Below, one piece after another: positions 4,465 to 6,774 of a DNA stretch of 20,051 nt. The stretch covers positions 1-20,051 of the IMG/VR virus record IMGVR_UViG_3300044994_000370, one strand, 5' to 3'. The notes under the pieces were generated by a model. That model ran no database searches. It was given only the letters and a program-made list of their open reading frames with translations, and had not been told where the DNA came from. Made by a program: the position numbers and the translations under genes. How positions within the stretch are numbered: position 1 is the stretch's first letter; each line of letters opens with the position of its first letter. Source of the stretch: a virus.

Positions 4465-4494
4465 CTAATACCTCTTATATTGGTGCTTACTTAT

Positions 4495-4623
4495 CTGACA
4501 GCTCCCACGATTAAATCGTGGGGTTCCTGCTTCATCGCTCTAGCTAACGCTAATCGCTCCACAGGCTTTGTTTATACTTGGAGGGCTGACCTCTCCTCCA
4601 AGTTAATACCTTAGTAAGGTACC
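4495..4623 (-). ncRNA. Predicted omega-RNA-like scaffold of the mini-element
   Basis: Read on the minus strand, this segment folds into a series of hairpins in the same order as the right end of the full TnpB element. They are GG(TACCTT)ACT(AAGGTA) at about 4605-4623, CTTGGAGG/CCTCCAAG at 4577-4602, and CCCACGAT/ATCGTGGG at 4504-4522. The intervening 62 nt are identical to the full element. Stems differ from it by compensatory changes (see findings), while the linker does not. TnpB proteins are known to use RNAs made from the element's right end, with the guide taken from flanking DNA directly 3' of that end. The predicted guide here is the minus-strand complement of about 4475-4494 (ataagtaagcaccaatataa), the leader of the 926-residue gene. 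Expression is not shown by the sequence; no promoter is identified. Confidence 0.5.
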
Positions 4624-4756
4624 GTTATTTTTATAAATCAGTGATTTGGTTCTTTGTCACTAATTTATACTTCACAATACTTATTAAAACCACTATTATA
4701 TTATCATTTTATTTTTCAAAATTCATCACACGACTTTAGGCGTGGGATTTCTTTTG
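4495..4756 (-). mobile_element. Mini IS200/IS605-type element, internally deleted relative of the TnpB element at 5422-6725
   Basis: Both ends match the full element. The segment 4520-4581 is identical to 5448-5509 over 62 nt, and 4673-4756 aligns without gaps to 6642-6725. The tnpB reading frame is gone except for a 36-nt hairpin (4633-4668) that corresponds to 5827-5862 inside tnpB. Subterminal hairpins are at 4504-4522 (perfect, 8 bp) and 4727-4746 (two mismatches). There is no target duplication, as expected for this family. Boundaries are taken from where the two copies stop matching (CTGACAG at one end, TTCTTTTG at the other) and are uncertain by a few bases. It has no protein gene, so it must be moved by a TnpA acting in trans, which is not in the window. 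It sits between the appendage gene and the zinc-ribbon gene. Confidence 0.85.
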
Positions 4757-4811
4757 ATCTTATCATTAAGATTGTCTATCACGCGAAAATACTAGATTTA
4801 ATCTTAAAGGT

Positions 4812-5321: not shown

Positions 5322-5441
5322 ATGAAACTCCTAGCTTTAGATCTCGAAATGAATCAGCCTAGCGGGAAAATTATCCAGATAGGAGCTTGTGTTTTTAGAA
5401 AAAAAGATAAAGCCATAATTGCTGACAGCTCCCACGCCTAA
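5322..5441 (+). pseudogene. DnaQ-like (DEDD) 3'-5' exonuclease, N-terminal fragment truncated by the TnpB element
   Basis: From ATG at 5322-5324 the frame reads MKLLALDLEMNQPSGKIIQI and on to about residue 33, with native sequence up to about 5421. It then enters the element and stops at 5439-5441. 'ALDLEMNQPSGKIIQIGA' is the Exo I motif region of phage RNase T / DnaQ-type exonucleases, with the metal-binding pair D7 and E9. The Exo II and Exo III motifs of a normal ~170-220-residue domain are absent. On the far side of the element only about 50 nt remain before the stop of the next gene. Joining the two flanks keeps the frame open for just 17-18 more codons, which do not look like exonuclease. 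So the 3' part was deleted, or the gene was already broken. The fragment cannot be catalytic. Confidence 0.75.
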
Positions 5442-5549
5442 AGACATGGGGTTCCTGCTTCATCGCTCTAGCTAACGCTAATCGCTCCACAGGCTTTGTT
5501 TATACTTGGTAGGCTGTCCTCTCCACCAAGTGTTCGCATTAATGCAAAC
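5422..5549 (-). ncRNA. Predicted omega-RNA scaffold of the TnpB element (3' end of tnpB plus right end)
   Basis: On the minus strand, in order: GTTTGCA/TGCGAAC (5532-5549), CTTGGTGG/CTACCAAG with one G-T wobble (5505-5530), a 62-nt linker (5448-5509, overlapping the stem edges) and CCCATGTC/GGCGTGGG with two wobbles (5431-5450). The first part overlaps the last codons of tnpB, as known for omega-RNAs. The guide would be the minus-strand sequence directly beyond the right end, the complement of about 5402-5421 (caattatggctttatctttt), derived from the exonuclease gene. Structure is supported by comparison with the mini-element copy. Its true 5' end and processing cannot be read from the sequence. 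Confidence 0.6.
5431..5450 (-). repeat. Right-end subterminal hairpin of the TnpB element
   Basis: Minus strand CCCATGTC-TTTA-GGCGTGGG pairs along 8 positions using two G-T wobbles. On the plus strand the same positions would be A-C mismatches, so the minus strand is the structured one. It is almost the same as the left-end hairpin at 6696-6715. In this family such hairpins are bound by TnpA as single-stranded DNA and also form the 3' stem of the guide RNA. Confidence 0.7.
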
Positions 5550-6634
5550 TTTTTAATGTTTTTTGCTGCTAGTATATCCCTGTCATGAGCAGTCCCACAT
5601 GACGAACATGTCCAAAATCTGTCACTAAGGGTTAATTGTTCATTTTTAACCCCGCAAGTACAGGTTTTGGAACTAGCATCAAATCTATCAATTTGTATGG
5701 CATTTTTGCCATACCAATCAGATTTATATTTAACCATACTGATGAATTTTGACCAACTAGCCGAGCCAATTGATTTGGCCAAACGGCTATTCTTCATCAT
5801 ACCAGAGACGTTCAGATCTTCAAAGCATAAAGTGGTGATTTGGTTCTCTGTCACCAATTTATGCGACAATTTGTGAAGAAAATCGTCTCTATGGTTGGTT
5901 ATTTTTTCATATGTTTTTGCTAAATTAATTCTTGCTTTTTCTCTGTTCTTGGAACCTTTTTGTTTTCTGGATAGTTCTCTATGTCTTTTGGCAAGTTTAT
6001 TTTCTGCTTTTTCTAAGAATTTAGGATTAGGAATTTTTGTACCATCGGATAAAACAATAAAATCTTTAATACCTAAATCAATACCTAAAGTATTGTTTTC
6101 ATTAATTTTTTTCTTTTTAGGTAACTCTACCCCATCTTCAACTAAGATTGAAATATAGTATTTATTAGTTTTTGTTTTAGAGACAGTACAGGTTTTAATT
6201 AAACCGTTAAATTTTCTATCCTTTGCAAACTTGATATACTTTAACTTTGGTATAAATACTTGGTATTCTTCAAAATTTACTTTAACATGTTGTGGAAATT
6301 GACAAGACGCTCTACTTCTTCTTTTTGCCTTAAATTTTGGAAAATCTGAATTTTTTCTAAAAAAGCTAATAAATGCTTTGTCTAGATTTTTCAAAGATGC
6401 TTGCAAACTTTGTGAATAAATACTTTTTAACCACTTAAATTCTTTTTGTTTTTTAAGTCTTGTTAATTTATTTGTTAAATCAAAATAAGACAAATTTGTT
6501 TTATCTTGTCGATATTGTTTGGTTTTTTGTTCTAGTCCCCAATTATAAACAAATCTTGTAGCACCAAAAAACTGTTCTAGCTTTTGGGCTTGTTCTTTAT
6601 TTGGGTATATTCTATACTTATATGATCTAATCAT
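5468..6634 (-). CDS. tnpB: TnpB RNA-guided endonuclease of an IS200/IS605-family element
   Basis: From the ATG at 6632-6634 the protein is 388 residues ('MIRSYKYRIYPNKEQ', the usual N-terminus); a TTG at 6644-6646 would add four. The family cuts DNA next to a short target-adjacent motif, guided by an omega-RNA from the element's right end. Residue numbers here follow the 392-residue form. The split RuvC core is intact: 'LGIDLGIKDF' with D190, 'CFEDLNVSGM' with E276, and 'HDRDILAAKNI' with the third acidic residue at D357. A zinc-finger insertion lies between the last two, with C329, C331, C347 and C350; the first knuckle is CxC instead of the common CxxC. No frameshift or stop is seen. Length fits active TnpB (about 370-420), and the intact catalytic residues argue against a nuclease-dead TldR-type regulator. 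The 3' end overlaps the predicted guide RNA. Confidence 0.95.
   Translation of the reverse strand: MIRSYKYRIYPNKEQAQKLEQFFGATRFVYNWGLEQKTKQYRQDKTNLSYFDLTNKLTRLKKQKEFKWLKSIYSQSLQASLKNLDKAFISFFRKNSDFPKFKAKRRSRASCQFPQHVKVNFEEYQVFIPKLKYIKFAKDRKFNGLIKTCTVSKTKTNKYYISILVEDGVELPKKKKINENNTLGIDLGIKDFIVLSDGTKIPNPKFLEKAENKLAKRHRELSRKQKGSKNREKARINLAKTYEKITNHRDDFLHKLSHKLVTENQITTLCFEDLNVSGMMKNSRLAKSIGSASWSKFISMVKYKSDWYGKNAIQIDRFDASSKTCTCGVKNEQLTLSDRFWTCSSCGTAHDRDILAAKNIKKFALMRTLGGEDSLPSINKACGAISVS
5827..5862 (-). repeat. Hairpin inside tnpB that is also kept in the mini-element (4633-4668)
   Basis: This 36-nt segment has 12-nt arms (11 of 12 pair) around the loop CAGAGAACCAAA. Almost the same sequence is the only interior part of tnpB retained by the mini-element, with a compensatory G-C to A-T change in the stem there. 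It encodes 'KLVTENQI' of TnpB. Its role is unknown; it could be a structural RNA or DNA element, or a deletion hotspot. Confidence 0.6.
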
Positions 6635-6695
6635 ACTACTACACAATACTTATTAACACCACTATTATATTATCATTTTATTTTTCAAAATTCAT

Positions 6696-6715
6696 CCCAC
6701 GCCTAAAGGCATGGG
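6696..6715 (-). repeat. Left-end subterminal hairpin of the TnpB element
   Basis: Minus strand CCCATGCC-TTTA-GGCGTGGG pairs over 8 positions with one G-T wobble, 10 nt inside the inferred left end. The mini-element equivalent (4727-4746) has two mismatches in its stem. TnpA enzymes of this family recognise such imperfect end hairpins. Confidence 0.7.
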
Positions 6716-6774
6716 CTTTCTTTTGGTTCTATCGTAAAAATTTATAATTTTTTAACTTCTAAACTAGAAAACCC

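Follow-up and report, generated by a model that had tools for sequence, protein, structure and literature searches.

A TnpB-less IS200/IS605-type element in a phage retains a whole omega-RNA scaffold and may arm TnpB in trans

A virus fragment of 20,051 bases (the window), whose genes encode mainly tail and baseplate proteins, carries a non-autonomous IS200/IS605-type element, M1, that arose by deletion of the body of tnpB with retention of both ends and of the omega-RNA. Elements of this kind are known as palindrome-associated transposable elements (PATEs), a term used for elements of Haloquadratum (PMC3119063). The overall explanation that we propose, and to which we assign a probability of about 0.55, is that M1 is a TnpB-less PATE whose RNA would arm TnpB in trans, thereby helping the element to persist. 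The window also contains a full TnpB-encoding element, F1; further TnpB-less copies (M2–M7) and TnpB-encoding copies (F2–F4) are located in the related records G001, G002, G003 and G010. The features concerned are as follows.

4475-4494, minus: putative guide of M1, ATAAGTAAGCACCAATATAA, within the 5' UTR of a 926-aa tail gene
4495-4764, minus: M1, TnpB-less IS200/IS605-type derivative (PATE), defined by its end matches and by an empty site in L066, L067, L068 and L071
4495-4604, minus: M1 omega-RNA scaffold, 110 nt, comprising a 9-bp stem, core stems, terminal hairpin and loop-tail pseudoknot
4504-4523, minus: M1 right-end terminal hairpin, both the omega-RNA 3' hairpin and the expected TnpA site
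4605-4623, minus: hairpin 5' of the M1 scaffold, with no pair-by-pair homology to that of the full element
4632-4669, minus: M1 internal hairpin, 13 bp with one wobble, originating from the tnpB codons that immediately precede RuvC-II
4727-4746, minus: M1 left-end imperfect palindrome
4765-4769, minus: target/TAM-position TTAAT, 5' of the M1 left end
5322-5441, plus: exonuclease-like gene cut short by F1, 179 aa long in sibling L066 and with about 33 native codons remaining in the window
5402-5421, minus: putative guide of F1, CAATTATGGCTTTATCTTTT
5422-5531, minus: F1 omega-RNA scaffold, overlapping the tnpB 3' end
5422-6733, minus: F1, full TnpB-encoding element, with TAM-position TTTAC at 6734-6738
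5468-6634, minus: TnpB, 388 aa from the ATG at 6634, with an upstream TTG at 6646

The preliminary description of this DNA had recognized a transposon derivative that lacks TnpB yet retains its guide-RNA scaffold in full, and this is borne out, both ends matching those of F1 and the scaffold being whole. The extent given there, 262 bp (4495-4756), requires correction, as the left end (GATAAGATCAAAAGAAA) and right end (...GAGCTGTCAG) delimit an element of 270 nt at 4495-4764 on the minus strand. The right ends of M1 (4495-4604) and F1 (5422-5531) are 92% identical over 110 nt (E about 1e-40) and the left ends (4668-4773 and 6637-6742) are 87% identical over 106 nt; the stretch of perfect identity, previously put at 62 nt, measures 63 nt (4519-4581). 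M1 positions 4633-4668 are homologous to the interior of the F1 tnpB gene (5827-5862), such that three parts remain in M1: the left end, a 36-nt hairpin from within tnpB and the 110-nt omega-RNA scaffold with its loop-tail pseudoknot. No protein is encoded, the longest internal M-ORF being 13 codons. The left-end palindrome (4727-4746) is presumably the TnpA-type recognition hairpin expected of the IS200/IS605 family. The TAM-position sequence of M1, TTAAT, is deviant, with NTTAT or TTTAC found in nearly all other copies. M1 lies between the tail gene and a conserved intergenic block (TAAGATT...GATAGACAATCTT, window 4770-4810), which may be the promoter of the tail gene.

A survey of 77 loci, identified by searching with the adjacent 926-aa tail protein, revealed that the intergenic sequence at the M1 site is uninterrupted in four siblings at 91-94% identity (L066, L067, L068 and L071), and M1 is therefore a true insertion. 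Target duplication is absent; the joined flanks align to the four empty sites to within a length difference of 1-2 nt at the junction. In all copies of the family a guide position is found directly 3' of the right end. TAM plus guide are present at the empty sites for F1 and F2. L066 and L067 have an unbroken version of the exonuclease-like gene into which F1 inserted, and the site there is CTTAT followed by CAATTATAGC, the TAM and then the guide of F1. Likewise, F2 is found in G001 but missing from its near-identical counterpart G003, where the site is ATTAT followed by GATTTCTATTGCAATC, compared with a guide of GATTTCTATTGCGATC. The M1 empty sites in the siblings mismatch the M1 guide at several positions, seed included, and a search for further sites matching this guide found none. 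Relative to the empty sites, flank has been lost on the left-end side of both TnpB-encoding copies, roughly 400 nt for F1 (window 5322-5441, 6734-6770) and 121 nt for F2 (G001 46688 versus G003 115204-115324), and both left ends now adjoin another TTTAC or TTTAT; these losses suggest transposase-like adjacent deletions. Beside F4, at L046 6820-6890, an inverted right-end palindrome is followed by a flank close to the guide of M4 (TAAATAATACC / TAAATAGTACC), a likeness that suggests a duplicated flank.

At least seven TnpB-less elements, M1 among them, make up a family. The search of related phages for standalone copies that had been proposed in the preliminary description recovered at least six others, each at a distinct site and with its own guide: five in G001, G002 and G003, two of which are common to more than one record, and another in G010. 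A single 119.5-kb record harbours five TnpB-less cassettes, whose guides are all distinct. The copies differ in the portion of tnpB removed. Type A (M3, M5, M6 and M7) has a longer piece of the tnpB interior, type B (M2 and M4) has more of the 3' end of tnpB and lacks the internal segment, and M1 itself constitutes type C. Types A and C both contain the internal hairpin and might share an origin, so that at least two deletion types can be distinguished and there are probably three. The DNA of M7, the copy in G010, has 88% identity to copies in G002 while the proteins of the phages are only about 45% identical; this, together with the distinct sites, indicates that the mini-elements are mobile between phages. 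A Y1 transposase gene (tnpA) was not found in 10 related records, all of which are fragments. Neither an Rfam scan at gathering thresholds nor a distant DNA search of the phage collection gave a match, and the exact 33-nt core pattern had no match in viral contigs outside the left-out near-identical set.

Several further elements were encountered alongside this family. Hairpin-only elements of about 46 bp, without a scaffold, occur in the same and sibling phages (G002/L046 14507-14552; G003 about 67669-67706; and the record of L073, at L156 about 1502-1557); in these, which lie at TTTAT or ATTAT, the start of the left end is joined to the tail of the right end via one palindrome. Two near-identical records (L047 2556-2841 and L049 477-762; M6a/M6b) carry different scaffold alleles at one and the same mini-element locus, the allele of G003 resembling M2; either copies have undergone gene conversion or the assembly is chimeric. 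Finally, a 392-kb phage record (L154 1501-1615) contains a right-end copy with a partial scaffold and no TnpB within the 3 kb examined, a possible second TnpB-less case in an unrelated phage.

In the enzyme encoded by F1, the catalytic D/E/D motifs (GIDLG, EDLN and HDRD) are all intact, the OrfB_IS605 and Cas12f1-like TNB domains (both Pfam) are present with the RuvC D/E/D, and the protein matches the ISDra2 TnpB (8bf8) with an E value of 2.8e-67. The scaffold core of M1 is exactly that of F1 (53/53) but 85-89% identical to the copies of other phages, so M1 matches the resident TnpB; its core would thus be expected to fit the resident enzyme, through common descent or conversion.

The M1 RNA is predicted to fold far better than chance (z is -4.4 when the 130-nt right end is considered and -6.4 for the whole element), and all 12 copies share one fold. 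A covariance model built from the family only locates this RNA directly 3' of distant tnpB genes, at about 50% protein identity, and so identifies it independently as an omega-RNA. Covariation had been expected in a larger alignment, and it is detected both in the 12 copies and in the TnpB-less copies alone. Across the whole set, which amounts to 7 distinct rows that are related and recombining, 95.5% of cells are paired and nine pairs are changed on both sides; the covariation score is reached by 0/500 shuffles, which ignore kinship, and the signal is lost when partners are slid. The TnpB-less copies on their own give 96.1% paired, eight both-side-changed pairs and 0/500 shuffles, well above both controls, and omission of the terminal hairpin and the 5' hairpin leaves 97.4% paired, three such pairs and again 0/500. 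In the loop-tail pseudoknot, five of the six pairs are invariant. As the M1 stem variant is also present in TnpB-encoding copies and sequence exchange is apparent at M6a/M6b, these pairs are not independent events. The family-wide pair counts, those of the TnpB-less copies included, nevertheless support a maintained RNA structure.

The preliminary description had argued for selection on RNA structure from M1 and F1 only. This conclusion retains support from the family-wide counts and from a C-G at the sixth stem pair, seen only in the TnpB-less M7 and in no TnpB-encoding copy here, although the two-copy argument on which it was built carries less weight than claimed. The flip of the sixth pair from A-T to T-A between M1 and F1 is real. 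However, GGAGG/CCTCC is also carried by the TnpB-encoding F2, F3 and F4, so the variant need not have arisen in the absence of tnpB, and a swap private to the protein-less copy is ruled out; with GGTGG/CTACC in F1 and M2, the two forms are standing variation. The hairpins at 4605-4623 and 5532-5549, described as still pairing, lie in different registers, with three of six homologous pairs broken in M1, and this candidate was rejected as covariation of homologous pairs. A transposase-recognition DNA hairpin, the TnpA site, is also expected at the terminal hairpin, whose covariation is therefore no evidence for RNA. Outside the scaffold, the internal hairpin is stronger in the TnpB-less types A and C (z -6 to -8) than in the tnpB genes (z -2.5 to -4.4; F4 -1.8). 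As a general feature of tnpB it was unsupported in distant tnpB genes, and base pairing between the internal segment and the scaffold, which does not exceed chance, was likewise discarded.

How far these observations require a functional RNA depends on the alternatives. The scaffold could be a legacy of recent tnpB parents, renewed by recombination with them, leaving an inert PATE with an idle RNA, a scenario that we regard as rather unlikely. It accommodates the occurrence of the M1 stem variant in F2-F4 and the exchange among copies suggested by the M6a/M6b alleles, and known PATEs are described core-deletion products (PMC3119063). It is less readily reconciled with at least two deletion types that end outside the scaffold and leave it whole, or with M7, in which the two ends have diverged far more than the core (22/66 versus 4/62 changes, p 0.00014, where the outermost left end may be degenerate). 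The compensatory change private to M7 also argues against it, although an unsampled TnpB copy could be the donor of this C-G.

Retention of the long right end as DNA for the transposase, rather than as RNA, would explain why the terminal hairpin and tail, the expected TnpA substrates, are conserved in every copy. Nevertheless, the 46-bp hairpin-only elements with TAM-like flanks imply that the scaffold is not needed for element presence at such sites, and the pseudoknot, together with the stems on the 5' side of the terminal hairpin, has also been kept, which makes this explanation quite improbable. The joining of a RuvC-II-adjacent tnpB segment to the scaffold raises a further alternative, namely that the M1 RNA is a decoy or regulator that dampens TnpB rather than arming it. 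Types A and C do keep this segment, its hairpin is near perfect in TnpB-less copies and weaker in tnpB genes, and an mRNA region next to RuvC-II acts as an inhibitor of AmaTnpB in vitro (PMC10278001). However, the segment corresponds to tnpB nt 773-808 (about 754-846 in type A), a partial positional overlap with the published 825-875; its complementarity to the scaffold is at chance level (z -0.8 and 0.3); type B is without it; and quasi-palindrome correction can yield perfected hairpins neutrally. We consider such a role very improbable.

In common with the Haloquadratum PATEs, M1 is short and protein-free, with near-terminal palindromes and no terminal inverted repeats, and both are multi-copy and related to IS605-type elements by core deletion; unlike those elements, which have been described as fusions of the terminal sequences, the M1 family keeps an omega-RNA scaffold and a guide of its own for each copy (PMC3119063). 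The closest anatomy is that of a 271-nt PATE-like element of Halanaerobium hydrogeniformans, composed of 28 nt of LE, the last 58 nt of tnpB and the entire 160-nt RE (PMC7290912), and presumably including an omega-RNA. That element is single-copy and chromosomal in a bacterium, and a guide RNA was not considered, whereas the M1 family is multi-copy, resides in phages and exhibits covariation and a tnpB-internal hairpin. The scaffold itself resembles the omega-RNA of ISDra2, with an RE scaffold of about 110 nt, stems, a pseudoknot between 5' loop and 3' tail in the corresponding position, a guide outside the element and the TAM at LE, although ISDra2 encodes its omega-RNA together with a TnpB of its own and M1 has none (PMC10097598). 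The outcome proposed here, in which element-free copies are cut and the element is favoured, parallels the gene drive shown for TnpB-encoding IS200/IS605 elements in plasmids (PMC11870625), except that the guide would come from a TnpB-less phage copy. PATE anatomy is already known, and a PATE with the whole right end was published in 2020; what is new is the multi-copy phage family with distinct guides and structural constraint. In the open literature searched, no report of standalone or trans TnpB omega-RNAs was found. Work on OMEGA systems and on Geobacillus TnpB is said to mention standalone omega-RNAs and PATEs.

Loading of TnpB in trans by mini-element RNA is plausible from the sequences. 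The M1 copy would be transcribed from its left end or by read-through; promoter-like sites in M1 are no commoner than in shuffles. A TnpB encoded elsewhere in the phage would then bind and trim the M1 RNA, and the resulting RNP would cleave copies of the site (TAM plus guide) that lack the insertion, whether in co-infecting genomes or in excised ones. Such cleavage would help to keep the mini-element in place, as is known for TnpB elements, and its movement would rely on TnpA supplied in trans. More tentatively, and in our judgement doubtfully, the few TnpB genes and many scattered TnpB-less cassettes might together form a dispersed, array-like guide system acting in trans against relatives that lack the insertions, in which each cassette would take its guide from the place where it inserted and a single nuclease would carry many guides. 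If TnpB-less copies do supply working guides, the picture of one TnpB, one guide and one site would have to be broadened. It would then be open to deletion derivatives to parasitise or extend a resident nuclease, with the phage gaining guides at a cost of less than 300 bases each, and some of the PATEs in public genomes would be guide-RNA genes rather than dead ends.
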